Origin: a virus
DNA length: 62,997 nt
Direction: 5' to 3' (one strand)
IMG/VR virus record: IMGVR_UViG_3300009149_000034
Location: 1-62,997 of that record
Below are positions 6,490 to 52,412 of the stretch, piece after piece. How positions within the stretch are numbered: the first letter of the stretch is position 1; each line of letters begins with the position of its first letter. Under the pieces are notes generated by a model, which was not told the origin of the DNA, searched no databases, and saw nothing but the letters and a program-made list of their open reading frames with translations. A program made the position numbers and the translations under genes.

Positions 6490-7518
6490 TCACCAAGCAA
6501 CATCTTCCAACGCTTTGATATCCCGACGTTTGAGTTCGCTACGTAGTTCTCTTAAAGTACGCTCTTTTATCTGTCGTACACGCTCAGGCGTTATGCCCGT
6601 TATCGCAGATAATTGAGGTAGACTCTTAGGTTCAGAGCGACGCTCAAACGTCGGCATGTCATAATAGCGAAGAATTATAAACTTATCGCGGGGTCTGAGG
6701 TTCAAACAGTTTAATGTTTTACGCAGTAATTGAGAGGTATCAGCCCCTACTGAGTCCCTCTCAATATTAGTATCATCGGTTAAAACTAAATCATCCATAG
6801 GCAAGGTGGTATTCAGAGTTTCAGTTTTCAATATGGGTACGAACTCGTGCTCCGAACTCTCTGGACACTCACTGTATGGCGCATTCCGTAATGATCCTTC
6901 TATGCGTAAATCGCAGTGACGACATATATATGCCCCGTGTTTTCTTAACTTCTGTTGTTCTTTTCTTTTATGCGATGGCAGATGAACTGTTGAATTAGAG
7001 TTAATCTCGTCCATCATCTCTTTACGCACCCACCATGCTGCGTATGTAAGAAACTTAGTTTTTATCTTAACATCGAACTTATCTACCGCGATCATGAGAC
7101 CAACATTTCCTGCGGAAATGAGTTCTAGTAGCTGTTCAAAGTTAGGAGAAAAAGACTTAGCGGTCTTTACAACGAATCGGAGGTTGGCGTTTATCAATTC
7201 TTCTCGTGCCTCTACGTCGCGGTCTGAGCCGCAAAGTGGGCAGTACTCAGGAGATATGTAAACGTCAAATTTAGTATTGCAATTACAACATGAGCATAGA
7301 CGTCCCCTAGTACGTTTAGGTAGCGGATCGCCACACTCTGGGCACCCCTTCCGCTTAACTTTCAAAGGAAAGTATTTATTGCAATGAGGACAAGTGCGGT
7401 AACGTATTAATAGTTTACGCTCTTGTTCATATGTTAATACTGGATGTTTACTTAGATCGTCGTAATACGTTTGGTATATGCGTGAAACATTCACATCCGG
7501 TGTAGCAGAATTGTACAT
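6490..7518 (-). CDS. Sigma-70-family RNA polymerase sigma factor with zinc-ribbon insertions
   Basis: A phage sigma factor that would redirect host RNA polymerase. Residues 26-41 (PVLTYEQERKLLIRYR) match region 1.2. Region 2 is at 104-175, with ANLRFVVKTAKSF, ISAGNVGLMIAVDKFD and TYAAWWVRKEM (promoter melting and -10 recognition). Region 4, a helix-turn-helix, is at about 268-330 (LPQLSAITGITPERVRQIKERTL). Metal motifs interrupt this frame: C43/C46/C59/C62, then C75-C80 with C93/C96, between regions 1.2 and 2, and C199/C202 with C218 before region 4. Ordinary group 1-4 sigmas lack these. The ribosome binding site GAGGAGG lies 6 bases before ATG. It is divergent from the gene at 7622 and shares an operator-like intergenic region, so autoregulation is possible. 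Confidence 0.92.
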   Translation of the reverse strand: MYNSATPDVNVSRIYQTYYDDLSKHPVLTYEQERKLLIRYRTCPHCNKYFPLKVKRKGCPECGDPLPKRTRGRLCSCCNCNTKFDVYISPEYCPLCGSDRDVEAREELINANLRFVVKTAKSFSPNFEQLLELISAGNVGLMIAVDKFDVKIKTKFLTYAAWWVRKEMMDEINSNSTVHLPSHKRKEQQKLRKHGAYICRHCDLRIEGSLRNAPYSECPESSEHEFVPILKTETLNTTLPMDDLVLTDDTNIERDSVGADTSQLLRKTLNCLNLRPRDKFIILRYYDMPTFERRSEPKSLPQLSAITGITPERVRQIKERTLRELRSELKRRDIKALEDVAW

Positions 7519-12914: not shown

Positions 12915-15908
12915 ATGATAGACTGTACCCTATGTGGTGACCATGCATGGCAGGGACCTGGTTGCTCTGAATGTGACCAATATAAGAACGCTCACTATAC
13001 AGAAGGTACCGGCGCGAACATTAAAAGTGATCCCGCCGCGTACTTCTGTATAGCTGAGTCTCCTGATGTTACAGGGGTCTCTGGCAAATTAAACGTCCAC
13101 CAAGGATGGTCTTTTGATATTGAGAAAACAATCAAAAGAGCATTCGCTACACATAAAGGAGAGATAGACCAAACCTTAATGGGTCTCACAGGGCGCTATA
13201 CATACGCAATGCGCTGCTCTAAAGAGAAACCCGTAAAGAAAGATATCCTAGCGTGTGCTCCTCTAGTACATGCTGAATTATTAGAATACGCCGTAAAAGA
13301 TAAGCCAATTATGGTTTTCGCCTTGGGTGAAAAAGTACTCACCTCTTTAGGGATTGCTGTTAAGAAGTATCGGTCGTTTCAAGGACGTTTTACTAAGACG
13401 ATGTTAGGAGATCGTGAAGTAATTGTTTACGCATCTTTGTCTAAACGCCAGTTAGTAGCTAAACCAGGTCATATAGAAATCCTCAAGAAACACATGATGG
13501 TTTTTATGGACGCGGTACACGCTATATCTAAAGGTAAGGACATCCGGACAAGGACGGAAATAGCTACGTTAACGGCCAAATACCATTTTCCTAAAAGTGT
13601 AAGTGCCCTTCGTAAACTTGTTGAATACATCACAGAATACACGTCGGGAGGTTTCGACGCTGATAAACTTCCTCTAGCAATCGACACAGAAACGAATACC
13701 GTTAATCCTCATCGAGATAAATTAAAGATACTATCCTTTGTAGTATCTTGGGCACCTGGAGAAGCAGCGTCTATCCCTCTAGAACATCCTCAAAGCTACT
13801 TTACATTTGAAGAAGCGGCTCCTTACGTACAGAGGATCTTAGATTGCGCTAAACCTAAGATCCTACATAATGCTAAGTTCGATCTAAAGGTGCTATGGCG
13901 GAAGGGGTGGAAAGTACGTAATTTTGCGTGGGATACGATGCTAGCGGAGCATCTTTTAGAAGAAGATAAGAAAGGATATTACAGTCTAAAAGAACTTACG
14001 CGCGTGATGCTTCCTGACTACGCTGATTATGAAGAAGACATTGACACCTTTATGACTGAGTTAAAAGCTAAAAAGGCTAAGAAGGAAACCGCCAGACTAA
14101 AGAAACTAAACCGTCCTCTCCCTCCGAAGCTAAAAGGCGCAGCTGCCAAGCTCGCGGATGATGGTGGGTACGAAGAAGTACCTCTGCGTATACTGAATCC
14201 TTATGGGGCGATTGACGCAGATGTAACTCGTCGCATTGCTATTATCCAACAAGCTAGGATGAAGCAAGAACAAAAAGATCAGCGTAAACTGCGGGATGAG
14301 CTACGTAAAAACCCCTATGCGACTAAGTATATACTGACACGTACAGCACCTACAGATAAGCCACTTCCTAATTTGATGCGAGAGCAACTTACATCCGCCA
14401 GTGAAGTTCTTGGCAACATGGAATTAGTGGGCATGCCCGTAGACAAAGACTACATAGAGGAACTCGTTGTAGAGCTCGACCGGTCTATTACTCTATCTAA
14501 GATTCAACTTAGTACTATGATACCGTCCTACGTATTCGAGGAGTTCAATCCTAGTAGTAACCCTCAACTCAGAAAGTTACTATATGGTACAGGGTATATA
14601 CATCCTGAGACAGGCGCGACTGTCTGTTACAAGGATATTGTGGAACCTCCTACTACTGCTAAGGGCGCAATATCTACTAATGCCGCCTTCTTAAAACAAC
14701 TAGTCAACCAAAATGACTGTGTGTTCTCAAAGGAACTTCTAATATTCAGAGCTATGTCTAAGGCTCGCAATACATTCGTAGAGAATATCAAAGTGCTGAG
14801 CGAAGAAGATGGGCGTATGCATACTTCCTTTCATATAGCTGGAACTTCCACTGGACGGTTAAGTTCCTCTAATGAAAATATGCAGAATGTCCCTAAACAA
14901 ATAGGTAAACACAATATCAAAAAGATCTTTGTACCTTCAGACAGAGAAAACAATATTATACTAAACGCCGATGCCAAAGCTGCTGAGGTGCGCATATACG
15001 CAGCATATAGCAAAGATAAAAATCTAATTGAGGCTCTCAATAATGGGATGGACCCACACTCGTTCTTCGCTTCAATGGTATACGCTCCTGAAAAGGTCTT
15101 AGCAAACGTACCACCTTCAGACTATAAGACCGTCATGGACACAATAGGAATTGACTCAGTGCACGCCTGGTCTTATGACGACTTTCAAAATCGCAGTGAC
15201 TTCATAGGTTCAAATAAGAATCCTGGACCAGACCCTACATATGGTAAACAACTAAATAAGTTGCGTACTAACATCAAGAGGGTGGTCTTTGGTATTCTCT
15301 ACGGCGCAAGTAAGTACAAGATTTCTTCTATAGTAGGGATCTCTGAGGAGCAAGGCGCGGCTATAATATCGTCGCTATTCACCATGTTCCCGTCTATCCC
15401 TGAATACATCAAGAGAACATATGAGCAACTGAATCATCTGAAAATGGTAGAGACATTCTTTGGACGACGCCGCAGGTTTGATACTGCGGGTATGCCGTTT
15501 AAAATGAAGAACAAAGCACAACGACAAGCAGTGAATTTCAAAATTCAAAGTACTAGTTCAGAGATAGTAATAAGAGTTATGAACGATATCGCAGAACCCA
15601 TCAAGCATGATTTCAACGGGCAATTAATGATCACCGTACACGACTCTGTCGTAGGTGAGATCCCGAAAAAATATATATCCCAGATGCCTGCATTCATGGA
15701 AGAGTACGGTGTAAATAGAGTAAGGAAACTCTATGACTGGCTTCCAGTCCCATTTCAGTGGGACGTTGAAGTAGGGCCCTCATATGGAGAGCTATCTCCC
15801 GTAGATCGTTATCTAGAAAATGACTCATCTGTGGTACAAGAGGAAGTCGTTGGCGCACTTGATTTCTTGGATCAAGAAATAAAGTCCGAACTCGCACAGA
15901 GCGTATAA
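12915..15908 (+). CDS. Family A DNA polymerase with 3'-5' exonuclease and N-terminal UDG-like domain
   Basis: The replicative polymerase, 997 residues. Residues 1-200 resemble family 4/5 uracil-DNA glycosylases: Cys pairs C4/C7 and C17/C20, FCIAESP in place of GEAPG, YTYAMRC (C101) with C114, then FALGEKVL. The Cys set suggests a 4Fe-4S cluster. The exonuclease has IDTETN (D257, E259), ILHNAKFDLK and the later DTMLAEHLL. The polymerase has GRLSSSNENMQN, motif A NADAKAAEVR (D686), motif B R-x3-K-x7-YG with Phe at the ribose-selectivity position, QSTSSEI and motif C TVHDSV. The glycosylase-like part may act on, or only sense, uracil ahead of the polymerase. Catalytic competence is uncertain because AESPD lacks the usual Gly. 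Last protein gene of the replication block. Confidence 0.95.
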   Translation: MIDCTLCGDHAWQGPGCSECDQYKNAHYTEGTGANIKSDPAAYFCIAESPDVTGVSGKLNVHQGWSFDIEKTIKRAFATHKGEIDQTLMGLTGRYTYAMRCSKEKPVKKDILACAPLVHAELLEYAVKDKPIMVFALGEKVLTSLGIAVKKYRSFQGRFTKTMLGDREVIVYASLSKRQLVAKPGHIEILKKHMMVFMDAVHAISKGKDIRTRTEIATLTAKYHFPKSVSALRKLVEYITEYTSGGFDADKLPLAIDTETNTVNPHRDKLKILSFVVSWAPGEAASIPLEHPQSYFTFEEAAPYVQRILDCAKPKILHNAKFDLKVLWRKGWKVRNFAWDTMLAEHLLEEDKKGYYSLKELTRVMLPDYADYEEDIDTFMTELKAKKAKKETARLKKLNRPLPPKLKGAAAKLADDGGYEEVPLRILNPYGAIDADVTRRIAIIQQARMKQEQKDQRKLRDELRKNPYATKYILTRTAPTDKPLPNLMREQLTSASEVLGNMELVGMPVDKDYIEELVVELDRSITLSKIQLSTMIPSYVFEEFNPSSNPQLRKLLYGTGYIHPETGATVCYKDIVEPPTTAKGAISTNAAFLKQLVNQNDCVFSKELLIFRAMSKARNTFVENIKVLSEEDGRMHTSFHIAGTSTGRLSSSNENMQNVPKQIGKHNIKKIFVPSDRENNIILNADAKAAEVRIYAAYSKDKNLIEALNNGMDPHSFFASMVYAPEKVLANVPPSDYKTVMDTIGIDSVHAWSYDDFQNRSDFIGSNKNPGPDPTYGKQLNKLRTNIKRVVFGILYGASKYKISSIVGISEEQGAAIISSLFTMFPSIPEYIKRTYEQLNHLKMVETFFGRRRRFDTAGMPFKMKNKAQRQAVNFKIQSTSSEIVIRVMNDIAEPIKHDFNGQLMITVHDSVVGEIPKKYISQMPAFMEEYGVNRVRKLYDWLPVPFQWDVEVGPSYGELSPVDRYLENDSSVVQEEVVGALDFLDQEIKSELAQSV

Positions 15909-16291
15909 AAATGGTACTGGATTTCTGCAGAACAAGCCAGAAATGGGAGAGGTTACCTCTCTAGTGCATTCCTTAATGTATGCACGCCACTAAAGGCAGG
16001 CAGGGGCCCTCTAGGCTATTGTTCTTGCGAACAACCGCCCTAGGGCCCCACGCCCCCACTTTCAGCTAGCAGTACCCATGGAGGAACGCCTAACTCTAGG
16101 GGTCGAATTGGACGTGTGGCGCCGACCTAAGCAGTTATACTAACTGGATAGTTTCTCTTACGGGAGAACAGGGGGTGCTACACCCCCATGGATTATTTGC
16201 TACCAGGCCGGGCCTTTTGGTGCCCATTCCGCACAAAAGAACCTACGTAGCAGTTAGTAGGAAGAGAGCAGCCACGCGCTGCTCTTTTTTT
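15909..16291 (+). ncRNA. Candidate structured non-coding RNA ending in an intrinsic terminator
   Basis: This stretch holds no convincing gene but about ten local inverted repeats in series. Arms: 15922-15927/15938-15943; 15947-15952/15956-15961; 15964-15969/15980-15985; a long hairpin 16003-16049 (GGGGCCC/GGGCCCC with an inner GTTC/GAAC); 16101-16105/16123-16127; 16132-16136/16142-16146; 16153-16157/16164-16168; 16171-16177/16181-16187 (GGGGGTG-CTA-CACCCCC); 16242-16246/16257-16261; and the terminator. TATAAA at 15904-15909 could be a -10 box, though no -35 is seen; readthrough from the polymerase is the other source. It lacks RNase P, tmRNA, 6S and group I intron signatures as far as I can tell. 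Function unknown. Confidence 0.6.
16265..16291 (+). terminator. Rho-independent terminator, plus strand
   Basis: An 8-bp perfect stem AGAGCAGC/GCTGCTCT with loop CACGC is followed by a run of T from 16285 to 16291. It ends the replication-block transcript and the candidate RNA 2 bases before the stop codon of the converging terminase gene. On the minus strand there is no T-run after the hairpin, so it acts in one direction only. Confidence 0.9.
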
Positions 16292-16293
16292 GC

Positions 16294-17880
16294 TTACTCC
16301 TGCCAGAACTTCATGTCCCCGTGTAAAACCTTCCACGCGATCCACCCAAACAACGCAGCATGCAAACAGTCATCAGACTTCTGAGGGAAGTGACGCCATA
16401 CCTTTTTACCTTGCGTAGTAACCTCTTCGAACTCATTCATCATATCGTCTAACGCAGGTTTCATCTCTAATAGAGGTCCAAACTCAACCTCTTTCTTCTT
16501 GAGAAGCATAAAGAAGTTATCTATGAGTGTAGTCCTATCCCCGTGGTACCGGTCTAACCCATTAAACTGTAACGCTGTCTTGAATGAACCATACTGTACT
16601 TGTGTAACCTTATGGTGCCCCAAAGATTTACGCAGTAAATCATTAGCTAACGCCCCCTCCCCTGCGTCACCTACGGCCATGGATACCCCGTATAATTTAC
16701 ATATATGTGCTATATCCTCATGCGCCTGTACAGGATTCATACCAGGGTAAATCTTATAGGTCACACAACACAATTTACTGTCGGTTGCGCGCTGTCCCCA
16801 AACCCATAAGACCGTTCGGGATACACCTGTAGTTCCACCCCCCGACCAGTCAATACCCGCAACATACTTGCTATACCCGCGTAACTTAGCAGACTGTGGG
16901 TACGCCACTAACTCAGGTCCAACGCACAACGCCTCGAGCTCCTCTAAGGATATAAGGCGAGATCCTATAGCGTCACTGACACCCAAAACCTCATTCCTAA
17001 AAAGGGAGATGGGTGACTCTTCATACTTTTGTTTTATACGCTGCCACCTGCGTTGTGCATGCTTGTACTCTACAGGTCTATTAACCATAGACAACGGCAC
17101 GTTCTTAGGCATTATAAGCTGACTAATGTGAAAACCTTTGAGCGTTTTTTTCGGCTGCATGTCCACCCATTGACCTAAGAATGGGTTTAGGTACGCAGAG
17201 CACTTAACACAAATGGGACCGTCTTTGCCCATGGCTCTCTCGCTATCTATGAACGAATACTTACCGCATGCAGAGCATTTCATAACCCACTCAGTCTGAG
17301 TACTGAGGTCCCACAAGAATTGGATTGTATTCTCCATCGTCTTGGGAGTACCTGCGTAGGTTTCATACGCATAGTTAGACTCAGACATGGTCTCATTGCC
17401 CACAGTTATAACTGGGTCATATAGAATATCCTGTACCTCATCGTACATGTTCCGGTCAGTTGAAGGACCACGGAGCCTGTCTGCGTCGTCACACCCATAT
17501 GTAAAGAGCATTTCTGCCCCATTAGTAAACTGTTTATGAAATACACGATCTGCTAGTTCAGTGTGTAAAAAGTTCTCTTTTAGGATAGGAGAGTACATCA
17601 TCGTTTTTCCAACACGACTATTAGAAAAACGGGTAGTTTGCTCCTTAGAAGGACTTACAAACATTGTCGAAAAAAAGGGTATAAGAGAACATTCAATGAT
17701 GGAGAAGTTGGCTAATGTTGTAGACTTCGCCACCTGGCGACTGGTCTTAAAAAGAGTACGCCTATATCGACCATCATAGAAAGCCTTGTGCATTGGCCAG
17801 TCGTCTAAGCGGAATGGTTTACCGTCTAAGCGAACCCAAGCCTCTGCCACTTGCGATAAGGTAGCACGATCAACAGTCAT
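16294..17880 (-). CDS. Terminase large subunit
   Basis: The DNA-packaging motor, 528 residues. The ATPase has a Walker A-like SRQVAKST at 47-54 and Walker B NMYDEVQD with D147/E148. The C-terminal RNase H-like nuclease starts at GIDWSGGG near residue 345, with further acidic residues near VGDAGEG and LDDMMNEF. Between them lies a zinc-finger pattern, C202/C205 and C224/C227, as in lambda gpA-type terminases. It would cut concatemers and drive DNA through the portal. No ribosome binding site is evident before ATG 17880, yet N-terminal conservation (DDWPMHKAFYD) supports this start. No small subunit gene is recognised next to it. It is divergent from the MoxR gene. Confidence 0.93.
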   Translation of the reverse strand: MTVDRATLSQVAEAWVRLDGKPFRLDDWPMHKAFYDGRYRRTLFKTSRQVAKSTTLANFSIIECSLIPFFSTMFVSPSKEQTTRFSNSRVGKTMMYSPILKENFLHTELADRVFHKQFTNGAEMLFTYGCDDADRLRGPSTDRNMYDEVQDILYDPVITVGNETMSESNYAYETYAGTPKTMENTIQFLWDLSTQTEWVMKCSACGKYSFIDSERAMGKDGPICVKCSAYLNPFLGQWVDMQPKKTLKGFHISQLIMPKNVPLSMVNRPVEYKHAQRRWQRIKQKYEESPISLFRNEVLGVSDAIGSRLISLEELEALCVGPELVAYPQSAKLRGYSKYVAGIDWSGGGTTGVSRTVLWVWGQRATDSKLCCVTYKIYPGMNPVQAHEDIAHICKLYGVSMAVGDAGEGALANDLLRKSLGHHKVTQVQYGSFKTALQFNGLDRYHGDRTTLIDNFFMLLKKKEVEFGPLLEMKPALDDMMNEFEEVTTQGKKVWRHFPQKSDDCLHAALFGWIAWKVLHGDMKFWQE

Positions 17881-20939: not shown

Positions 20940-21007
20940 AGTGTACCTCGTCAGTTACCTAAACAAGGGGTGTGTTACATACCCGCCAAATTATAGGAGG
21001 TAGTGTA

Positions 21008-22414
21008 GTGGAAAACAAGGAAAACCCTTCGGTGAAAGAAATACGAGATGAGTCTTACAAAGCCATGGGCGCCGTCATGCAATGGCTCAGCAGCCCCCGT
21101 GGCGGAGACAACTTCTACGGACGGATCATGAATGGGTGCGGCAGAACGCCCAAGGAGGGGGTAAAAACAGCGTGTGTGACTCTTACCTCGGAGGGAAAGT
21201 ATCTCCTCCTCTGGGATCCAGCATGGTTCGTTAGCCGTAAGATGCCAGACCGCATCCTGACGGTGATCCATGAAGCGGGGCACATCGTCCTACAACATCT
21301 GGAAAGAGCCCTACGTCTGCGGCTCTCCGTACGAGAACCAGAAGTGTTCCAACGGCTCCTACCCATCTTTAATATCGCTGCTGACATGGCGTCAAACGAT
21401 ATTGCTCTCAGGCCCTTCGTAGATTCCGGAGTCTTCAAGAACTACAAGGACGGGTTTCTCTTCCCGGAGAACCCACAATACGATTTTCCAGAGAATCAGA
21501 CGTTCGAGAAGTACCTGGAACTCCTCATTCAGAAGGCTAAGTCCGAGGGGTACAACCCCAAAACAGGTGAGGGCGCTGTACCCCAATGGATGGAAGGGAT
21601 GCAGGGACACCTGCCCTGGTGGAATGAACTCGACTCAATGACAGAGGATGAGATCGAGAACATGCACCAGAGAGCGAAGAGGGAATCGAAGAAGATCGTT
21701 AAGAAGGCTGTCGAGCAGACAAAGAAAGACCGCGGAACAATGCCTTCAGGTCTGGAGGGTCTGATCGAAGGAATGCTCGAGGAACCTCAGGTTCCCTGGA
21801 CAGTGATGCTCCAGAACCTGATGAAGGGGAGCATTACCTCCAAGCTGGACGAGAGCACCGCGTGGCCTAACATCGGACTGCTCACGGAAGAGGCGATGGC
21901 GCAGGGGATGGAGCCTTATCCGGGTTTCCAGAAAAAGCCAGGTATCCACGTGACCGTGGCTATCGACACTTCTGGAAGTGTTTCGGACGAGAACTTCAAG
22001 AAGTTCATGGGTGAGATCCAAGGAATTATGAGCAGCGAACAGGCTGTGAGCGTGCACGTACTCATGTTTGATGCCGCTATCCAACATGAGTTCATCCTCA
22101 AGGAGGACTCCAATATCGATAACCAGCATCGTTATCGGTATGGGTACGGAGGAACATCCTTTACACCAGCACTCCGGCATATACTGGGAGTGGATGATGA
22201 CCAGAACTGGGAAGAAAACGCAGAACGTCTGAAAGAGCCCGCCCCTCGCCCAGACATGGTTGTCATGTTCACGGATGGTTACGCACCTGTAACCGAGGAA
22301 GAGGGCGGACCTATGCCCAAGTATGAACCCCCATGCCCACTAATGTGGGTGATCACCGAAGACGGTACTGTTCATCCAGGCATGGGCAGTAGGGTCGTCA
22401 AGATGGAGTACTAG
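21008..22414 (+). CDS. Metallopeptidase-like/VWA-domain protein (DUF2201-like), MoxR partner
   Basis: A 468-residue protein. The N-terminal half has HEAGHIVLQH (H88, E89, H92), a zincin-like motif, followed by NIAADMASND, as in the predicted metallopeptidase part of DUF2201-type proteins. The C-terminal half is a VWA-like domain with an intact MIDAS: AIDTSGSVS (D320, S322, S324), a GGTSFTPAL threonine and MFTDGYAP. VWA proteins of this kind bind a MoxR ATPase, which is present at 17947. GTG 21008 is preferred because AGGAGG sits 7 bases before it; an upstream GTG at 20972 precedes that site. First gene of a four-gene operon with the reverse transcriptase (next ATG 3 bases after the stop). Codon use is G/C-ending-rich like the MoxR gene. 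Confidence 0.85.
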   Translation: MENKENPSVKEIRDESYKAMGAVMQWLSSPRGGDNFYGRIMNGCGRTPKEGVKTACVTLTSEGKYLLLWDPAWFVSRKMPDRILTVIHEAGHIVLQHLERALRLRLSVREPEVFQRLLPIFNIAADMASNDIALRPFVDSGVFKNYKDGFLFPENPQYDFPENQTFEKYLELLIQKAKSEGYNPKTGEGAVPQWMEGMQGHLPWWNELDSMTEDEIENMHQRAKRESKKIVKKAVEQTKKDRGTMPSGLEGLIEGMLEEPQVPWTVMLQNLMKGSITSKLDESTAWPNIGLLTEEAMAQGMEPYPGFQKKPGIHVTVAIDTSGSVSDENFKKFMGEIQGIMSSEQAVSVHVLMFDAAIQHEFILKEDSNIDNQHRYRYGYGGTSFTPALRHILGVDDDQNWEENAERLKEPAPRPDMVVMFTDGYAPVTEEEGGPMPKYEPPCPLMWVITEDGTVHPGMGSRVVKMEY

Positions 22415-22417
22415 CCC

Positions 22418-23029
22418 ATGAAGATCTACCGACTTAAACTGCGTCAGAGGCGTCTGGATAATACTCGGAAGCATGCTTTCCACTACTTCCCATTCGACAA
22501 TGTCTACTTCGTTCCGACGAACCAAGTATCGATTAGTCGGCGCCTATTCAGGTACTGCCTAATAATCGATGTTGATCCGACGTTACGGAGTGCCATTAAA
22601 GATGTGTCAGTACAGAAGCACCGAGTGTTAGAGATCCCTCGTAGAGACAACATCGCATGGACAGACACCGATAAGGACGAAGACGTTACAGAATTCCTGA
22701 ATAAGGGAGACTGGACTATGCTGGTACCTACATACGCCCGTGTAGACAAGCATACGAACACAGCTAAGCTAAGTTACGTCTTGTCCGACGCAGTTAAGGG
22801 TATGCACAATCTGACCGCGCACCTTCCAGGTGTTAAGATCCAAACACCTAAACGTACAGTGCCTGCAATTTGTGCCCTGTGTGCACAAGCAGCGAACTAC
22901 TACGCTAACAAGTGTTCACCTGGAAGGCGCGTGTGTGCCAATAACATAGCACTATCTAGCGATGCGCTAGACCTACAAACCATCGTTGACATTGAAGAGT
23001 CTATCCGTGGTGCAGGAGAAGTAAAATGA
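22418..23029 (+). CDS. Hypothetical protein with C-terminal Cys cluster, RT-operon member, 203 aa
   Basis: Not recognised. The N-terminal 110 residues mix beta strands and basic segments (KIYRLKLRQRRLDNTRKH, RRLFRYCLIIDVDP). The C-terminal part has a C-x2-C-x10-C-x6-C cluster in CALCAQAANYY...CSPGRRVC, a likely zinc or iron-sulfur site similar to others in this phage. GGAG precedes ATG 22418. Its TGA overlaps the ATG of the reverse transcriptase, so the two are translationally coupled. The basic surface and metal site would suit a nucleic-acid-binding partner of the transcriptase, an inference from context. Confidence 0.8.
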   Translation: MKIYRLKLRQRRLDNTRKHAFHYFPFDNVYFVPTNQVSISRRLFRYCLIIDVDPTLRSAIKDVSVQKHRVLEIPRRDNIAWTDTDKDEDVTEFLNKGDWTMLVPTYARVDKHTNTAKLSYVLSDAVKGMHNLTAHLPGVKIQTPKRTVPAICALCAQAANYYANKCSPGRRVCANNIALSSDALDLQTIVDIEESIRGAGEVK

Positions 23030-24207
23030 CTAATGGATACGAGGATACACGACTAGAGGAAATACACGTAAATACCAAGTTAGATCCTTTGATCATTGAT
23101 GACTTCTCCTTAGCCTTCTTCCTAGGCTTCCGGAATAAAACCTTGTGGCATGCGCTCTACGCAAATACCGGCAACATGTATAAGGTGTTCAAGATACCCA
23201 AGAAAACTGGGGGATACCGGATGATCCATGCGCCGGAGCCGCTGATGAAGCACTTATTGGACAGAGTACATGTACGTTTACTGATGCCCCTACAGGAAAA
23301 GTTAGGGGACCACGTCACCGCATACCGTGAAGGTAAATCCATAACGGATGCGGTGGCGTACCATATTCCTAAGTGCAAAATTTGCGATTCAGCTCCTCCA
23401 GACAAGACACCCAAGAAGCATGACTGCCCTAAACGTGGTGTCTACATACACATGGATCTCAAGAACTTCTTCTCTAACACCCGTCGAGCCTGGGTTCGTA
23501 ACTACTTCATGCACAAAGGATATAGCTTTTACGTTAGCGGGCTAATTGCGCAGCTTGTTACTGTCGACGACATCCCTAACCCTAGGTACCCCAATGCGGT
23601 AGGACACCAGAAAGACAAATTACGAGAATTCTTTACAGGTGTACCGCAAGGAGGACCCACGTCAGGGGCGATATGCAACTTGGTTGCAGACTATAGGATG
23701 GATAAACCCATACTAGAGTACATACGGGAACTAAACAAACGACATGGGTTAAACGGTGAAAGGTCCTGGAGGTATTCTCGTTACGCAGATGATATGACAT
23801 TCACCTGCGGAATAGATCTTACGAGAGAAGAGAAGACCCAAATAACTAAAGAGATCCAAAAGGTCGTCGAAAAGTCGGGCTACCGCATAAATGAAAAGAA
23901 GACGCGTATCTCTAACTCGTACTACCGTAAAACGATGTTAGGTGTAGTATTTAATCAAAAGCCTAATATACCAAAAGAGAAGTACATGCGTATGCGCGCC
24001 ATCATCCACAACTGTGTAACTCAAGGAATCAAAAGTCAGGTTAATAGAGTACACAGGAAAGACGCAGATGACCTAGTCCTCTACCTTAGAGGAATGGTTA
24101 GCTACTACTCACAAGTCCACCCTAAGAAGGCAGCAAAGCTTAAAGAGGAACTCGATGTGGCAATAGCTAATCACCTAAAGGAGGAAGGAGCGCAAGCTGC
24201 ATGTTAA
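23026..24207 (+). CDS. Retron-type reverse transcriptase with a Cys/His insertion
   Basis: A 393-residue RNA-dependent DNA polymerase. Block 1 is IPKKTGGYRMIHAPEP (57-72). SITDAVAYH (105-113) parallels the retron NAxxH motif, as DAVAYH. Motif A is HMDLKNFF (D144), block 4 GVPQGGPTSG (205-214), the catalytic YADD 253-256, then GYRINEKKTRI and MLGVVFN, the place of the retron VTG motif. Between NAxxH and motif A lies an insertion with C117, C120, H132 and C134, a potential metal knuckle not found in ordinary retron RTs to my knowledge. It lacks group II intron maturase/endonuclease domains, and no template/variable repeat pair marks it as a DGR RT. It overlaps both neighbours; there is no adjacent room for an msr-msd RNA, the usual retron template. 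Confidence 0.93.
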   Translation: MTNGYEDTRLEEIHVNTKLDPLIIDDFSLAFFLGFRNKTLWHALYANTGNMYKVFKIPKKTGGYRMIHAPEPLMKHLLDRVHVRLLMPLQEKLGDHVTAYREGKSITDAVAYHIPKCKICDSAPPDKTPKKHDCPKRGVYIHMDLKNFFSNTRRAWVRNYFMHKGYSFYVSGLIAQLVTVDDIPNPRYPNAVGHQKDKLREFFTGVPQGGPTSGAICNLVADYRMDKPILEYIRELNKRHGLNGERSWRYSRYADDMTFTCGIDLTREEKTQITKEIQKVVEKSGYRINEKKTRISNSYYRKTMLGVVFNQKPNIPKEKYMRMRAIIHNCVTQGIKSQVNRVHRKDADDLVLYLRGMVSYYSQVHPKKAAKLKEELDVAIANHLKEEGAQAAC

Positions 24208-25607
24208 AAAAAGAGGCTTACTACGAGGGACCTATATTTACACTAGCCCGTTCTAATGCAGAGGACCGTCCTGAGTTACTTTTCATCAATACTACACGTA
24301 ACGAAGATTTCAATGAAGAGGATATAGAGACTATTGCGGAGAGTTCCCTAGTAAAAAAATTACTGGGGGACTCTTTTATATTAGTACTAGCGCCACAACG
24401 AAAATGGAATCAACGTTATCGGTGGAATAGTGACCCCAAGGAACACGACTTAAAATTGAATGTACTGCATGTTACACCTGACGTTAGTAACTTACTAATT
24501 AATAGATTAGATGAACCTTATCTGCGAAATGCGAAGGTATGGTTACGGAAGTCAGATGGTACCTTAAAAGCTTATGTGCCAAATGATGTTCATAATTATT
24601 GTCCCTCTCCTGCAAAATACGTAATGTCCTGTGAAGACTGTATGAGGAAAGGTGAGTTTACTGCTTGTGAATTTAGCAAGTTTGCCTCGTACATATCCGA
24701 GGACTTTAGCGGTATGGATAACTTCGATGCTATTAGATCTAAGCTTATACACCGTAAAACTAAAGTAGGTCCGTACTTATTCGTAAGTGCTTCCATGACA
24801 CATCCAGGTATAGAACCGTACTTACGACCCGCACGTGAGCATTACTTTGAAGTCGTAGAATCTGTCGCAGATATCCGTCGAAAAGCTAACTTAGAAAGGA
24901 CCAGATTCAACAAATTTAAGAAAGCAGAGTGTGCCAATTGTATGCTGCATAATACTTGCCATACACGTTTGTATGATGATTACTTTATACGATACTGTAG
25001 TGGAAAGTATGAAGGCGACGAAAAGACAATAGCCTCCAGGATGGTTGATAAAGTTACGATCCCTTATACACCTACACAACTACGTTATCTCACTCTAAAT
25101 TCTGGGATATTAAATAAGCGTGTGAATAGGTGTAAGTACACGGCGACGTTCAAACTGTTTGAAGGACCCTATTATGATACTACGGATGGAACTACAACGT
25201 CGCGTCCTACGTTACTATTCGGTATACATAGAACTCTGCTCCCCGGCCAGTGCTCATTCATGCCTATAAGAGACTTCGATGATGCCGTGAGACTACTTAA
25301 TGGTAAAAAAGACTATGTGATACCTAAGGATCGAAAGTACTTTAACACCGTTCAAACTGCTACTCTTCTACAGTTGTGTCATCAGCAATACTCAGTAGCT
25401 CGAGGAGGATGGGGCTGTACGTCCTACCCGAGAGCGTTTACAACCTACGACAGACTCTATGACTGTTTCAAGAGTTACCACTACTATCCGCATAGCTCCA
25501 TAACAGCCAATTGGACAACGGTAGCAGCAAAAAATCTAAAAGATGTTTACATAGAATACAAGCGTTTCATGCTAGAGGAGAAATCAGTATCACCGTTGAG
25601 ACGATAA
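24201..25607 (+). CDS. Cys-rich protein of unknown function, RT-operon member, 468 aa
   Basis: Not recognised. It starts 7 bases inside the reverse transcriptase gene. Two metal-type clusters are visible: CEDCMRKGEFTAC in the first half and CANCMLHNTC followed 12 residues later by another Cys (C-x2-C-x5-C-x12-C). The second resembles those in the SNF2 helicase at 340. Many Tyr/Arg/Lys residues and a basic C-terminus suggest nucleic-acid contact. No nuclease, helicase or transmembrane signature was found. Codons are A/T-richer than the VWA gene. It ends 1 base before the converging gene at 25609. As last member of the operon it is the best candidate for an effector or dedicated RT accessory protein, but this is inferred only from position. 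Confidence 0.8.
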   Translation: MLKKEAYYEGPIFTLARSNAEDRPELLFINTTRNEDFNEEDIETIAESSLVKKLLGDSFILVLAPQRKWNQRYRWNSDPKEHDLKLNVLHVTPDVSNLLINRLDEPYLRNAKVWLRKSDGTLKAYVPNDVHNYCPSPAKYVMSCEDCMRKGEFTACEFSKFASYISEDFSGMDNFDAIRSKLIHRKTKVGPYLFVSASMTHPGIEPYLRPAREHYFEVVESVADIRRKANLERTRFNKFKKAECANCMLHNTCHTRLYDDYFIRYCSGKYEGDEKTIASRMVDKVTIPYTPTQLRYLTLNSGILNKRVNRCKYTATFKLFEGPYYDTTDGTTTSRPTLLFGIHRTLLPGQCSFMPIRDFDDAVRLLNGKKDYVIPKDRKYFNTVQTATLLQLCHQQYSVARGGWGCTSYPRAFTTYDRLYDCFKSYHYYPHSSITANWTTVAAKNLKDVYIEYKRFMLEEKSVSPLRR

Positions 25608-41711: not shown

Positions 41712-43070
41712 TTAGCCCCACACTTCCTCTTCGTCCCATCCCCCCTGGTCTTCTTGTTCTAAGCCCTCTTCAACCCAGCTACTCGGAGTATTCTCTGACT
41801 GCTGGTAGAAAGTATACGCATTTGCGGTGGTTAGATCCATGTTACGTGACTCTTCTAGAGTTTCATTCGCTGACGAGTAATTACGTTCAGATCGCCCCGC
41901 GTTAGCAAATGAGATAGCCCGTGCCCGACCTATACCAGCGTAATAGATAGGAGACAACGCTTGTTCAGTAATACCTGATACCGACGATGCCGAGATAGGC
42001 TGCGTAATTATGTCCTTACTTGAATCTATATATTTAGAAGGAGCTACCCAGATATTCGATACATCAATAGTCGTATGTGAGGATACTAAAGCAAAAAATG
42101 AATCCCAAAGAGACTGATCTAAAAAGTGAGGAGATATATCAGGAAAAGATGACCCCTTAATGAAGTCATGCATCGTATACCCTGGCGCACTACCACTGTC
42201 CAATGAACGTCGAGAAATGCTAATAGTCTGCGGTATATTAAATGCGACCTCTAACTTCCTATATACAATACTTAATGTCAGTAATTGTGCGGACGTAAAA
42301 GCAAAATACTGAACATTACCTCCTGTATTCGGCGGTGTACCATCTGGACTCCACGTAGCACGCTCCTCGTTAGGGTGTTTCACCAAGTAAAACGCCTCTT
42401 CTAGCGTAATCGCTACCGCACTTTCGTTGGCAGCGTCAGATGAAAACATAATGTAATTAGCGTCTCCTACAACGGTTAAGTTGCCGGATCTATCAATCAT
42501 ATAATGCATGCATGTTCGAGATTTAGAACCTACAGCTGCTTGCAATGCGCCACTAACACGCTGGGGGTGTGACAATGTAGTACTATCAGAACCTTGCGCG
42601 ATGTACACCGTCTTGCCTTCGTGCTCATAAGGTACAACACCCATACCCGCTGCAGCGTTATTTAACCATCCACCCCAGCCGCGGCTACCTGGTACATTAG
42701 TGGCGTGCCAGGCATGGCCGTATGAATGTAAAACAATGTGCTTTATCTCTCTGGGAGTTCCAGGCATCTCATACCCTAACTTAGGCGCTGGTACATGAGA
42801 TACAGTCACTGTCGATGGAAACCCTTCTGCGCTCATTACCCGTTGTGGTATCGTACCACTCTGGCTAGGTCGTTCAGATCGAGCGCGAAGGTTATACTTT
42901 GCCGCGGCATTACCTTTAGTTTCCAATGCTAACTTATGCAACGAGTCAAGCCATGGACTAACTGCGTAAGCATCAGTAACGTCAGGTGCTTCATAACCAG
43001 AAACTAAGTCTTCTGGCATACGCGTCTCGAGTGCCGTCAAGGCATCTTGTTGTTCCTGCGTAAGCGCCAT
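41712..43070 (-). CDS. Baseplate-associated amidase (AmpD/amidase_2-like)
   Basis: A 452-residue protein whose middle carries an amidase_2 pattern: REIKHIVLHSYGHAW (H115), TCMHYMIDRSGNLTVVGD (H189), ESAVAITLEEA (E224/E225), and GYTMHDFIKGSSFPDISPHF (H301, D311). H115 and H301 would be zinc ligands. Its position beside the gp25-like gene and among tail genes points to a virion-associated peptidoglycan hydrolase that locally opens the cell wall at infection, distinct from the endolysin at 3580. The C-terminal 130 residues (with YYAGIGRARAISFANAGRSE) lack a recognised domain. It overlaps the upstream stop by one base. Confidence 0.75.
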   Translation of the reverse strand: MALTQEQQDALTALETRMPEDLVSGYEAPDVTDAYAVSPWLDSLHKLALETKGNAAAKYNLRARSERPSQSGTIPQRVMSAEGFPSTVTVSHVPAPKLGYEMPGTPREIKHIVLHSYGHAWHATNVPGSRGWGGWLNNAAAGMGVVPYEHEGKTVYIAQGSDSTTLSHPQRVSGALQAAVGSKSRTCMHYMIDRSGNLTVVGDANYIMFSSDAANESAVAITLEEAFYLVKHPNEERATWSPDGTPPNTGGNVQYFAFTSAQLLTLSIVYRKLEVAFNIPQTISISRRSLDSGSAPGYTMHDFIKGSSFPDISPHFLDQSLWDSFFALVSSHTTIDVSNIWVAPSKYIDSSKDIITQPISASSVSGITEQALSPIYYAGIGRARAISFANAGRSERNYSSANETLEESRNMDLTTANAYTFYQQSENTPSSWVEEGLEQEDQGGWDEEEVWG

Positions 43071-43768
43071 TAGTACTTACCACCCTGGATATCTTTAATG
43101 CTATCGACGAACTTACGTTTACGATAACTTAACTGTCCTTGTGTAAGATTGTGCTGGCGCATCAACTCTGTGTTATTCAAGGATCTTCCTCCCCCGTACC
43201 CAGTGATGTCCTCAAACAGCTTCTGGTCAGACTTAGGTAAACCGTGGTAATAAAAATCAACTAGTCCGTTATCGGATGTACTATCTTCGACGAATGCACC
43301 TTCCGACTCCACTAATTCCCGCCTACCAAAAGACCGCGTAAAATCTTCTACCTTCTTAGGGGTCCAACCTAATTCATCAGCCAACTCTTCAGTTGTAGCG
43401 TCTTGCCCCGTAGAGTCGTATATCTTATTCTTCGCTACAGCGAAGGTATTGAAGAGTACCTGCTTATTCTCAGGTAACCTGGCTACATTCTGATAGGGAT
43501 AAACATGCCGAGACAGTTTACGTAGACGGCTGGCTACGTGTGTACCTATCGCAGCCCCCATATTAGGGTTATATGTGTCTAACGCCCCTACAGTGAGCAT
43601 CCTAGCTTTAGACTCTAACGCGGGTCTGGGTACAGTACTTCCCCACTTCTGCACCTCACGTTGCATTAGAGGATTAAGTCTATCCAAGAGTAACTTGAGC
43701 GTTTGTGGATCTTTCGTCTTTCTCCACTCACCCCATAATTCTAGGTCTTCTTCTTGCCTACTCTGCAT
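43070..43768 (-). CDS. Sigma-70-like factor encoded within the tail operon
   Basis: A 232-residue protein with sigma-like layout. A region 2-like helix set is at 10-90 (GEWRKTKDPQTLKLLLDRL, GALDTYNPNMGAAIGTHVAS, RLRKLSRHVYPYQNVARLPE). A region 3-like helix-turn-helix is at 121-145 (ATTEELADELGWTPKKVEDF) and a region 4-like end at 180-225. It resembles FliA/WhiG-type and phage late sigma proteins sometimes found embedded in structural clusters. It may direct late transcription or be a virion-associated derivative. It overlaps the amidase by one base and is preceded by AGGAGTAGGTT. No Cys motifs, unlike the sigma at 6490. Confidence 0.75.
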   Translation of the reverse strand: MQSRQEEDLELWGEWRKTKDPQTLKLLLDRLNPLMQREVQKWGSTVPRPALESKARMLTVGALDTYNPNMGAAIGTHVASRLRKLSRHVYPYQNVARLPENKQVLFNTFAVAKNKIYDSTGQDATTEELADELGWTPKKVEDFTRSFGRRELVESEGAFVEDSTSDNGLVDFYYHGLPKSDQKLFEDITGYGGGRSLNNTELMRQHNLTQGQLSYRKRKFVDSIKDIQGGKY

Positions 43769-48239: not shown

Positions 48240-51200
48240 CTAGTAGTTTGCCCCTGAAGCCTCATTGACGTTACTAGTACCATACTGATTGGTGGTATTC
48301 GTACCTGAAGTTGCGGCGTCAAGCGTTGACGAACTAGACGAATTACCCAGGATAGTACTTCTACTAAACTGATCTACGTATATCCCTACAGTACCTGATG
48401 CCATGTAGCAAACATTGCCGACAATAACCCAGCTATAACAAGCATTGGTCGCACTTGCTGCTACACATCTGCCTAGTGTATCGCCATCATGTCTAAGGAA
48501 ATTGCCTACAATTATGCCATAATGAGCACCAGCCACACCCCAAATTGCCGAACTTACTTGGTAAGAACCATTATTTGAAACAGCCGATCCAATATAACAT
48601 CCATTAACTCTAGTATAATCAGCACCTGAATTAAGAAATAAGTTACATTTGCTGTTAGTACCAATTATTCGGCAATTAGAAAATCCATTGTAATAACCAT
48701 TTACATGCACCATTCCATCTGTTGGATTACCTGCTAAAGTATAATCCATCATTCGCTGATACCAATAACAATTAGAAAACTGGTTCTGCTGACCCGTAAT
48801 ATAAGTATTTCTTGAAGAACAGTTTGTTGAAGTGTTCCAACCAGTATTAAAAGTGCAATTGTCAAAATGACAATTGTCTGCTTCTACAGTTAAACATTGT
48901 GGATTATGCCCAGTTTGATCTGATTCTCCAGCATAAACTTCAACATTGGAAAATCTAGAGTCATTTCCCTGGCAGTAAAGAACGGTAGCGTAGCTCGAAC
49001 CGTAGGCACAATTATAATAACAATCTGACATTTTTGTACTTACAGCATTAGATGTCATCCATACAGAACCACCAGTACAAGTTGAATTTACACTACTGAC
49101 CTTAGAAATATGGGCACCTGTACCTGTGACATATATTAACCAATCAGATGGGAAGAGCGTATTAAAAGAAACGTTGTCGAGTGTACAATAGTCTCCCGCA
49201 ACACTAATCGCGTAACCATAAGACCCAGGTCCTTGAGGATTTATCTGGAAGATGCAGTCTCGTATACTCGAATAATCTGCGCCTAACTGTACCCCGTACA
49301 CCTGATTCGTCATGGTTGTAGAGCGAGTGAACGCGACACTCTGAATCTCTACATGGTTGGTAAAGTTCAAGCAACAGTCTGCATCCCCCGAAGTAAAGCG
49401 TATAAACGTATTACCTGCGCCCGAACCTACAATCTTCAACTCATATGCAAAGGTCTGTACAGTAGTCCAAGATATGTCATGCGTTCCCGCTCCAAGAATG
49501 ATCTGCGCATCTCCCGTAAGATTTTGAAGCAGTGTTGCAAACGCCGTCGAATTCGAACCATTTACGTAGTAAACTCCGTCAATCAGCGAATACCCTGTAC
49601 CTATAGTCTCCGTACTGAAAACCTGACCGCTAAGTGGCGTAAACGCAATTCCGCCAGCAGTTGTTATCTCAGCTCTCAGATTAGCTGCGGCTGTACCGTC
49701 TTGGTACCACTGAAACTGTGTGTCCGCGCGATACCGATGACCCCCTGTGGAGTCAATAAAAACGTCACCTCCGGCAGTTACACTCAAATCGTCTGTAGGT
49801 GTAAGATTTACATCCGCACCCGCTGACAAAAGAATATCTCCCGTTACCCCAATAGTTGAAATAGTAAAATCTTGCCCTGAAGCAGGCGTCATGGTCATGG
49901 CACCTGAGGTATTAATCCACAGCCTACTCTCACTATTTTGTGTGATATAGACATTTGATAGTGTGGACGTACCTAATGAGAGCTGTCCTGCTGTAGAGAA
50001 CAGCCCAGTATCCCCGGAAATAAACTGAATATCTCCGTTCCCTGTAGTCGTAACTGTAAAGTTAGCCGACGCTCCAGGAGTCCACGCCACTACGCCAGTA
50101 GAATCAATATCCAGAATCAAATGATCATCTTCATAGACCTGGTACCTACCCGCACCATTCAGATTGTTATAAATGGTAGTGACGTCGAAGTCCCCGTCCA
50201 GGTCAATCGCTGCCCCTGCTCCGGCTGCCCGTAACAAGATGTGGGGCTCCGTAACCAGTGAGTCCGTAACGGTGAGCGTGATATTCGCATCCGTTAGTGC
50301 GTCCAGAGAGATGCCGCTACTGAAGGTCGCTACCGCAGTAGCATTATTCTTTATGTAAAAAGAACTACCTGCTGCGTCCTTGTCGTAAACGAGATTAACA
50401 ACTCCGTCAGATTCAACATTAACAGTCGCAGAACTCCCCCCGCTCGCAGTAGCCCGAAGACTTGCACTGCTGGCACCCCCTCCAGTAGCGGTAGCCGTCC
50501 AATCCACAATACTGCCACCAGTGCCTGAGTTAGTAACGGTACCTCCAAGCCCTACATTCGCAGAGGTACTGAGTATGGCCGACGCTGCGATACCTTCCAT
50601 GCCTGCGGGAAGATCCCCTAGAAGAATGCCTATATTAGTCGTATCCGCAGCCAACGCCAAATTGTCAGACGCAGACACCGTAATGTCCCCACTCGTAGTG
50701 GTCTGTACAGTCAGGTTCGCGCCTGCAACTGTGAAGTTCGATGTTCCTGCTGCATCCAGAGAAATCGACGCACTGTCTATCGTGGTCGCACCTGTAGTAT
50801 TGATATCAACAATACTCGAAGTAAGGTCGATCTCTCTATCCGCCGAGATATTTACATCCGCAAGAGTAGTAGCAGAGGTGGCCCCTACATTCAGAGCAAC
50901 GGTTCCGGTTCCAGTAACTGTTAGGTTTGAAGTACCGGTAGCGTCTATAGAAAACGTAGCGCTATCCATGGTTAGCGCTGTAACCGAATTGAGATCAATG
51001 ACGTTAGCAGTTAAGTCAAACTCTCCACTTACGCAATCTACAAAAATATCACTAATGGACGTCAGCAGAATATCTCCCGAAACAACTGTTTCAAGAGAAA
51101 GGTTACCGTTCTGTACCGCAAAATTAGATGCGCCTCCCGCATCAATTGTTACCGCACCAGAGGCATTGATGTCTACTGTAGCTGCAGTTAAATCAATTTG

Positions 51201-52412
51201 AGAACTTGCTGAAACTAAAACATTAGCATCCCCACTACTACTAGTAGCGGCTAATGTGAGCGCGACCGCTGCAGTTCCAGTAACTGTAAAGTTAGAGGAC
51301 GTCACAGCATCAATTGAAATAGAAGCCCCACTATCCACCGTTACAGTAGATGTCGCGTTAATATCGACATGTAGCGCTGTAAGGTCTACTTCATAATCTG
51401 CGTCTAATCTAATGTCCGCAGTACTCGAAGTAAGAATGATGTCGTTAACCGCATCAACCGTAACACCTGTAACCGAATTGAGATCAATGACATTAGCGGT
51501 TAAATCAAATTCCCCGCTAGAGCAATCCACGAAAATATCGCTAATAGACGTCAGCAGAATATCTCCCGAAACAACTGTTTCGAGAGAAAGGTTACCGTTC
51601 TGTACGGCAAAATTGGATGCGCCTCCTGCATCCAACGAAATCGCATTAGTAGCGTCTACAAGGAAAGAACCTGTAATATTCGTATCAACATCCCCCGCAT
51701 TGGCAGTAATATCTACGCCACGCGCAGAAGTCAGAGCTATGTTTCCACTCCCCGTAGTCTGTAATGTCAAATCCGCGGCGACAGTGAAATCAGAAGCAGC
51801 CCCTGCCCCGAGAGAGATCGCTCCAGTAGCATCAATATACACCGGTCCAGCAGTAGCATCGATATCTACATAGTCCCCGCCAGAAAGAGTCAGACGATCT
51901 ACAGACGTTACTGAAATATGTCCCGACGTGACTGTCTCTAGAGTGATACCTGCGGTGCCGTCTACTGTTACGGCGGAAGTATCTCCTCCTTGTAAGTACA
52001 CTTGTGTCTCAGAGAAAGAGGCTTTCTGTGATCCTCCAACCGCGACACCTATCGTATTAGAGGATACATTGTAAAAACCAGTATCTACATCCTCTTCGAA
52101 AGCATATCCGGGGGCACCTACTGTACCCGCTCCAGCAGCTACAGTATCCCCAGCGGTATCAGGGTGAAGTACAGTTCCAGTTCTATCCCAATAAGCTATA
52201 CCAGAAACAGCATTATCTACATAGGTCTTTACAGCTAACTGTGTAGGAACAGCGGCATTAACAGCACCAACACCACCGAGATCCGTAGCCGTATTGAAGT
52301 TGGTTATAGTGGTCCCCGTCTTTAAGGTGAATCCACCAGCCGTAATACTAGCCTGAAGAACATCATTAATCTCAAAATTGAAGTCTCCAGTGGTATCCCA
52401 TTCGTAGCTCAT
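48240..52412 (-). CDS. Giant tail fibre/tailspike with C-terminal parallel beta-helix, 1390 aa
   Basis: The N-terminal 1000 residues are a repetitive beta shaft of short units such as DLTANVIDLNSVT, IDAGGASNFAV and SGDILLTS, with Asp/Thr/Ser/Ala bias. From about residue 1000 (VNGSNSTAFATLLQNLTGDA, GAGTHDISW) it becomes a pectin-lyase-like parallel beta-helix. Recurrent FSNCxxxN/DNCxF ladder motifs follow, as do many Cys (uncommon in fibres). That part may bind or cleave surface polysaccharide; catalytic residues cannot be assigned. The beta-helix part is AT-richer than the shaft, suggesting module exchange. Its 5-prime end faces a hairpin-bearing gap. Confidence 0.85.
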   Translation of the reverse strand: MSYEWDTTGDFNFEINDVLQASITAGGFTLKTGTTITNFNTATDLGGVGAVNAAVPTQLAVKTYVDNAVSGIAYWDRTGTVLHPDTAGDTVAAGAGTVGAPGYAFEEDVDTGFYNVSSNTIGVAVGGSQKASFSETQVYLQGGDTSAVTVDGTAGITLETVTSGHISVTSVDRLTLSGGDYVDIDATAGPVYIDATGAISLGAGAASDFTVAADLTLQTTGSGNIALTSARGVDITANAGDVDTNITGSFLVDATNAISLDAGGASNFAVQNGNLSLETVVSGDILLTSISDIFVDCSSGEFDLTANVIDLNSVTGVTVDAVNDIILTSSTADIRLDADYEVDLTALHVDINATSTVTVDSGASISIDAVTSSNFTVTGTAAVALTLAATSSSGDANVLVSASSQIDLTAATVDINASGAVTIDAGGASNFAVQNGNLSLETVVSGDILLTSISDIFVDCVSGEFDLTANVIDLNSVTALTMDSATFSIDATGTSNLTVTGTGTVALNVGATSATTLADVNISADREIDLTSSIVDINTTGATTIDSASISLDAAGTSNFTVAGANLTVQTTTSGDITVSASDNLALAADTTNIGILLGDLPAGMEGIAASAILSTSANVGLGGTVTNSGTGGSIVDWTATATGGGASSASLRATASGGSSATVNVESDGVVNLVYDKDAAGSSFYIKNNATAVATFSSGISLDALTDANITLTVTDSLVTEPHILLRAAGAGAAIDLDGDFDVTTIYNNLNGAGRYQVYEDDHLILDIDSTGVVAWTPGASANFTVTTTGNGDIQFISGDTGLFSTAGQLSLGTSTLSNVYITQNSESRLWINTSGAMTMTPASGQDFTISTIGVTGDILLSAGADVNLTPTDDLSVTAGGDVFIDSTGGHRYRADTQFQWYQDGTAAANLRAEITTAGGIAFTPLSGQVFSTETIGTGYSLIDGVYYVNGSNSTAFATLLQNLTGDAQIILGAGTHDISWTTVQTFAYELKIVGSGAGNTFIRFTSGDADCCLNFTNHVEIQSVAFTRSTTMTNQVYGVQLGADYSSIRDCIFQINPQGPGSYGYAISVAGDYCTLDNVSFNTLFPSDWLIYVTGTGAHISKVSSVNSTCTGGSVWMTSNAVSTKMSDCYYNCAYGSSYATVLYCQGNDSRFSNVEVYAGESDQTGHNPQCLTVEADNCHFDNCTFNTGWNTSTNCSSRNTYITGQQNQFSNCYWYQRMMDYTLAGNPTDGMVHVNGYYNGFSNCRIIGTNSKCNLFLNSGADYTRVNGCYIGSAVSNNGSYQVSSAIWGVAGAHYGIIVGNFLRHDGDTLGRCVAASATNACYSWVIVGNVCYMASGTVGIYVDQFSRSTILGNSSSSSTLDAATSGTNTTNQYGTSNVNEASGANY
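50981..51137 (-). repeat. 157-bp direct repeat, copy A (inside the giant fibre)
   Basis: Nearly the same sequence as copy B at 51470-51626, offset by 489 bases. It encodes GGASNFAVQNGNLSLETVVS and the following strands up to FDLTANVIDLNSVT. The copies differ mostly at third codon positions. It marks an internal duplication in the shaft. Confidence 0.9.
51470..51626 (-). repeat. 157-bp direct repeat, copy B (inside the giant fibre)
   Basis: Partner of 50981-51137; same reading frame and nearly identical product, with FVDCSSGEF where copy A has FVDCVSGEF. Differences are spread over all base types and are mainly silent, so this is not a template/variable pair of a diversity-generating retroelement. 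Confidence 0.9.

Follow-up and report, generated by a model that had tools for sequence, protein, structure and literature searches.

The stretch of DNA analysed here (the window: the whole 62,997 nucleotides (nt) of IMG/VR virus record IMGVR_UViG_3300009149_000034) contains a non-coding gap between the genes for a family A DNA polymerase and the large terminase subunit. The gap holds two tandem copies of a conserved RNA module built on the plan of a retron template RNA, and a reverse TRANSCRIPTASE (RT) of the retron class is encoded farther along the same strand. Considered together with related phages, the window very probably represents a retron-like system of phages in which one RT serves, in trans, most of a large number of template RNAs, some arrays combining one msr with several alternative msds. 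We class the system as a variant that is retron-like, acts in trans and has multiple templates; its RT is of the retron kind.

In a first-pass annotation of the sequence, the gap was described as the only large non-coding one in 63 kb, dense in hairpins, placed directly after the polymerase and against the terminase, ended by an intrinsic terminator and unlike known RNA families. All of these features were recovered. The stop codons of the two genes (15908 for the polymerase, 16294 for the terminase) are 385 nt apart. Other interior gaps do not exceed 115 nt; only the left contig edge has a longer stretch, 339 nt, free of called open reading frames. The minimum free energy of the gap is −160.5 kcal/mol on the + strand (z = −4.2 against dinucleotide shuffles), with approximately nine helices predicted; the complement strand gives z = −5.8, and both strands fold better than all 100 shuffles. 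A generic terminator scan missed the array-end terminator at 16291, we think because A-U pairing extends its stem into the T run. No tRNA or tmRNA was found in the gap by ARAGORN, Rfam gave no match at the gathering threshold, and blastn against phage genomes returned nothing usable. When Rfam was searched up to an E-value of 10, a Tymo tRNA-like match appeared (E = 0.027, far under the cut-off), which was judged to be due to chance. The same annotation treated the gap as one structured RNA of about 380 nt. Structure is confirmed by covariation in relatives (63 modules), and the single RNA gives way to two tandem modules.

The modules share the following plan: the 5′ strand of a closing stem (P1), an unpaired G, hairpin P2, hairpin P3, variable hairpins, AG and the 3′ strand of P1 (coordinates in Table 1). 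P3 is a hairpin of approximately 7 bp whose three-base loop, NNA, is closed by a G-C pair (in relative L024, GATGTTG[AAA]CGGCATC). The closing stem, equivalent to the a1/a2 pair of retrons, comprises 7 and 9 bp in the window and 7–18 bp over the clade, in keeping with the retron range of approximately 8–30 nt, and it covaries. Conserved P2 and P3 followed by variable hairpins reproduce the retron order of short msr-like hairpins and then msd-like hairpins. The candidate priming G sits exactly at the 3′ end of a1, but this G was built into the search descriptor.

A strict descriptor of this plan, run over both strands of the window, gives exactly two matches, both on the + strand and both inside the gap. 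In relatives, 1–9 modules per gap were detected in 20 of the 28 gaps tested, compared with 0–0.15 in dinucleotide shuffles. Unrelated viral DNA (0.96 Mb) yielded 20 matches in total, never two within 385 nt; none of 4,868 control windows of this length contained two modules. The matches listed by an IMG/VR pattern scan for two copies of AGCAGTACC appear mostly unrelated and served as controls only.

The first-pass annotation had proposed covariation in related phages as a check, and this is observed. It was counted on pre-cut P1 and P3 pieces because MAFFT failed to align P1 in whole modules. In 63 modules, 99.0% of the cells are paired versus 56.0% after shuffling, and double-changed cells number 395 versus 116, counts which are biased toward structure since P1 selected the modules. 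Pairing falls to 31–51% when the partner strand is slid along, and changes on both sides are seen at every P1 pair and at all P3 pairs but one. The comparison of descriptor matches with shuffles is the cleaner proof, since P1 complementarity was used in finding the modules. P2, which lies outside the selection, has stems of at least 5 bp in 47% of modules versus 7% of shuffles. The number of modules found rises from 31 with Watson–Crick pairs only to 50 if G·U is allowed (19 more) and to 35 if A·C is allowed (4 more); therefore, the RNA corresponds to the + strand.

Searches that used the polymerase and terminase proteins as queries recovered more than 60 loci of an uncultured phage lineage. 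In about half of the relatives these two genes abut; otherwise the gap measures 128–1154 nt, and in more distant phages 1.2–3.2 kb, small genes included. The gaps show little overall sequence similarity and have a repeating plan in common. Modules with strong covariation recur in more than 20 related uncultured phages, in the polymerase gap and at a second conserved site, in arrays of one module (L180) to approximately ten (L188). The second site, located by whole-contig scans, is flanked on one side by a gene for a secreted protein and on the other by a small gene plus a deoxynucleotide monophosphate kinase. Arrays occupy it in G002, G004, G005, G008, G021, G024 and L341; in G023 an array lies upstream of the kinase, and in G027 the site is present without an array. 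In G021, G023, G024 and G026, where the polymerase gap is absent or lacks an array, arrays are present elsewhere (two regions, by inspection, in G023). Same-strand terminators stand at array ends in the window, in L024 and at the second sites of G002 and G021. Isolated descriptor matches in G022, G025, G027 and G028 were regarded as background. The strict descriptor misses tandem repeats in the distant relatives L189, L191, L195 and L208; these repeats have TAG triloops, their closing strands (AGATCT) are near-palindromic, and they could be a further module subtype.

Among the 28 clade contigs that are 40 kb or longer, 27 encode the RT; among 16 unrelated viral contigs, none does. Its catalytic YxDD motif is present (RYADD, RYSDD or RYCDD) in all 24 aligned RTs. 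The best PADLOC model for the window RT is RT_XIII (3e-59), the class of Mx162, and retron RT_XIII tops the table for all 18 clade RTs. Among NCBIfam families, retron RTs rank above group II RTs and DRT-type defence RTs. A clade RT profile compared with the PDB retrieves retron RTs as all of its top 12 matches, and the AlphaFold model of the RT (pLDDT 87.9) matches retron RTs, including that of Eco1, in all of the top 17 Foldseek places, followed by DRT2, group II and diversity-generating retroelement (DGR) RTs. After region X, nearly all clade RTs carry a zinc-finger-like CxxC...HxC insert (residues ~117–134 of the window RT, nt ~23374–23427), which distinguishes them from type XIII retron RTs.

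The RT is embedded in a four-gene cluster (VWA/metallopeptidase, X203, RT, Y468) kept tight in the 21 contigs examined. X203 and Y468, considered as possible effector proteins, are translationally coupled to the RT in 21 of 21 contigs checked, and neither matches anything known; PADLOC recognizes no known accessory protein in either of them, another difference from type XIII retrons. The model of Y468 is confident (pLDDT 84.9), and a fold search of the PDB gave no match to it.

The likeness to a characterized retron extends to the RNA. A generalized descriptor (any triloop sequence, G before a2) applied to E. coli picks out the Eco1 (Ec86) non-coding RNA exactly, at the annotated retron. It was recovered as TGCGCACCCTTA followed by G, then GGATGTTG and CGGCATCC around a TTT loop, then G followed by TAAGGGTGCGCA. 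Eco1 and the phage modules thus have the same order: a1, G, hairpin, G-C-closed triloop hairpin, variable hairpin region, G and a2. In retrons a1 ends at the priming G, and the Eco1 RT binds an 8-bp stem with a three-base UUU loop (PMC6868368), which P3 of the phage modules resembles. Eco1 has an effector gene and a single RNA that immediately precedes its RT; the phages, by contrast, have several arrayed RNAs in a core region distant from the RT.

Cultured Staphylococcus jumbo phages provide an adjacent arrangement. In both PALS_2 and MarsHill, a non-coding stretch of 1.2–1.3 kb immediately precedes the annotated retron-type RT and contains unannotated tandem modules, three in PALS_2 (L352 3959–4534; 0–1 when this stretch is shuffled) and four in MarsHill (L355 2256–3050). 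They keep the plan of P1, G, P2, P3, hairpin, G and P1′; they differ from the clade in the array lying directly upstream of the RT, in an AATA tetraloop in P3, and in the RT being only ~25% identical. Through this adjacency, arrays of this architecture are linked to a retron RT. The role of the jumbo phage RT was left unexplained, DGR features being absent (PMC10638138). The RT regions H34 and H35 contain no convincing array.

There is one earlier case of msr-msd copies duplicated at a distance from an RT, that of Retron-Nex1 (Ne160), with several msr-msd repeats, no RT within 1 kb and possible retrotransposition (PMC6868368). Unlike these repeats, the phage arrays occupy conserved sites, are diverged in sequence and conserved in structure, and stand in genomes with a core RT. 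No description of phage retron arrays was found in the open-licence papers that were searched.

The retron-like system could work as follows. The gap would form the 3′ untranslated region of the polymerase mRNA, carrying two tandem template RNAs. In each module, a1 pairs with a2 to form P1, and the G that stays unpaired is the base immediately 3′ of a1. After recognizing P2 together with the triloop hairpin P3 (the msr), the RT would start synthesis from this G, with the variable hairpins that immediately precede a2 (the msd) as template, giving a small hairpin DNA linked to RNA. Because relatives hold arrays of 1–10 modules at two conserved sites, a single RT acting in trans would produce diverse multicopy single-stranded DNAs. 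The system most likely serves in conflicts with rival phages or with the defences of the host; candidate roles are superinfection exclusion and the supply of decoys to a host defence that senses DNA.

In some arrays, a single P1 5′ strand is accompanied by several identical 3′ strands. In L014, ACAGCAGTRCC occurs nine times, and the eight hairpins between the copies are unrelated to one another (mean alignment score 0.352 versus 0.327 shuffled). That the a2 copies are identical although the hairpins between them have diverged argues for the use of all of them, and each hairpin with its a2 may be an alternative msd for the shared a1 and msr. The genomes do not have AGCAGTRCC scattered at other places, and therefore a trans sponge is unlikely. 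The chances appear evenly balanced that this is a phage-borne multi-template retron in which one RT serves several template loci in trans and a single a1 and msr pairs with any of up to nine identical a2 strands, each following a different hairpin.

Several observations weigh against a retron-like reading. The NAXXH motif of RT region X reads AVxxH in nearly all members (H is kept), a deviation from Eco1; its N deviates in 2 of 16 validated retron RTs as well (PMC6868368). VTG at the start of region Y reads LLG or MLG in nearly all members. The array and RT are at least 6.7 kb apart in the clade (in the window, the RT lies 6.7 kb downstream), whereas a retron has its non-coding RNA directly upstream. 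The two altered motifs and this distance are the reason why the system is not filed as a canonical retron. Co-occurrence of RT and arrays says little on a direct link because almost every clade genome has both. The four bases around the G are TGGA, TGGC or CGGA in the group of the window, and TAGC or CAGC occur in more distant members only. Five or six RT-bearing contigs, all fragments, show no array; such absences mean little because the clade contigs are probably fragments. No promoter matching the sigma-70 consensus was found near the array, which may be because phage-specific promoters are used; the window encodes two sigma-70-like factors (6490–7518 and 43070–43768).

Alternatively, the gap could encode a structural RNA comparable to GOLLD or ROOL, large and ornate, that acts as a scaffold or cage and is unrelated to the RT. 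Such phage-encoded RNAs of unknown function exist (PMC12286853), and the gap RNA is likewise large, hairpin-rich and variable in length. However, no Rfam covariance model, GOLLD and ROOL included, matches it in sequence and structure, and there is no tRNA island. The architecture is one of modular 100–200 nt units on the retron plan rather than a single fold of 500–800 nt, while a retron RT is present in nearly every clade genome and adjoins the array in the staphylococcal phages. This explanation is improbable. That the modules are templates of another RT system, a DRT-type defence RT or a DGR, is quite improbable. Several non-retron RT systems also use structured non-coding RNAs, and the altered NAXXH and VTG motifs would agree with this, but retron RTs rank far above DRT, group II and DGR RTs in profile and fold searches, and the RNA plan equals that of Eco1. 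No template repeat/variable repeat (TR/VR) pair linked to the RT was found, the window having only a repeat internal to a structural gene and a short weak pair.

A structured 3′ untranslated region or bidirectional insulator between convergent operons, which would only stabilize or terminate transcripts, is suggested by the convergent gene position and the terminator. It is very improbable: conserved multi-helix modules with a triloop and an unpaired G are not needed for such a role, approximately half of the relatives have no gap here, and arrays occur at other sites too. Single-sequence folds of GC-rich DNA can look structured by chance or artefact, but this is refuted by the covariation against shuffles and slides and by the control windows, and its probability is negligible. 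A pRNA, a type III antitoxin and a guide array were dropped as candidates once the RT was found.

Table 1. Features of the array, its neighbours and the RT cluster in the window.
Feature	Position	Strand	Basis or remark
Family A DNA polymerase, stop immediately 5′ of array	12915–15908	+	Pfam PF00476, 1.8e-71; same strand as array
Non-coding gap with two-module retron-like RNA array	15909–16293	+	strand from G·U versus A·C test and terminator
Module 1	15913–16076	+	descriptor match
Module 1, a1 (P1 5′ strand)	15913–15919	+	GGTACTG
Module 1, candidate priming G	15920	+	
Module 1, P2	15921–15944	+	
Module 1, P3 triloop hairpin	15946–15962	+	
Module 1, msd-like hairpin region	15963–16067	+	followed by AG
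Module 1, a2 (P1 3′ strand)	16070–16076	+	CAGTACC
Spacer between modules, with another hairpin	16077–16137	+	sequence and fold only
Module 2	16138–16259	+	descriptor match
Module 2, a1	16138–16146	+	TACTAACTG
Module 2, candidate priming G	16147	+	
Module 2, P2	within 16148–16170	+	
Module 2, P3	16171–16187	+	
Module 2, msd-like region	16188–16248	+	followed by AG
Module 2, a2	16251–16259	+	CAGTTAGTA
Intrinsic terminator closing array	16264–16291	+	stem GAGCAGC/GCTGCTC, then T7
Terminase large subunit, convergent to array	16294–17880	−	Pfam PF05876, 5.3e-12
VWA/putative metallopeptidase protein (DUF2201)	20972–22414	+	first in RT cluster
X203, conserved, Cys-rich	22418–23029	+	overlaps RT start; no known family
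Retron-class RT, 393 amino acids, YxDD	23026–24207	+	PF00078, 4.4e-21; proposed in trans user of array RNAs
Y468, conserved, Cys-rich	24201–25607	+	overlaps RT end; no family, no fold match

Some further features of these genomes were observed. A direct repeat of 166 bp, 90% identical, is located at 50978–51143 and 51467–51632 of the window, within one large gene (48240–52412). In L011, L017, L021, L026 and L034, the polymerase match is split near residue 650 by a few hundred to ~1,300 extra bases, which suggests an intron or intein at a conserved site. A phage contig of the lineage with 78,677 bases (L187/L342, QMZE01000001.1) has been assigned to a GTDB genome that bears the label Archaeoglobales, which is probably a binning error.

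In known retrons a single RT is paired with a single template RNA, and their role is mostly to protect bacteria from phages. In the lineage of large uncultured phages described here, a retron-class RT is almost universally retained, and many diverged template RNAs are arrayed at a distance from it, which raises the question of why a phage would need a repertoire of hairpin DNAs. If a shared a1 and msr does pair with any of several a2 strands, the array would be a cassette library of alternative msds, providing such a repertoire during infection. The tandem modules offer a possible answer to the unexplained RT of cultured Staphylococcus jumbo phages, and multi-template arrays could help to make several DNAs from one transcript.
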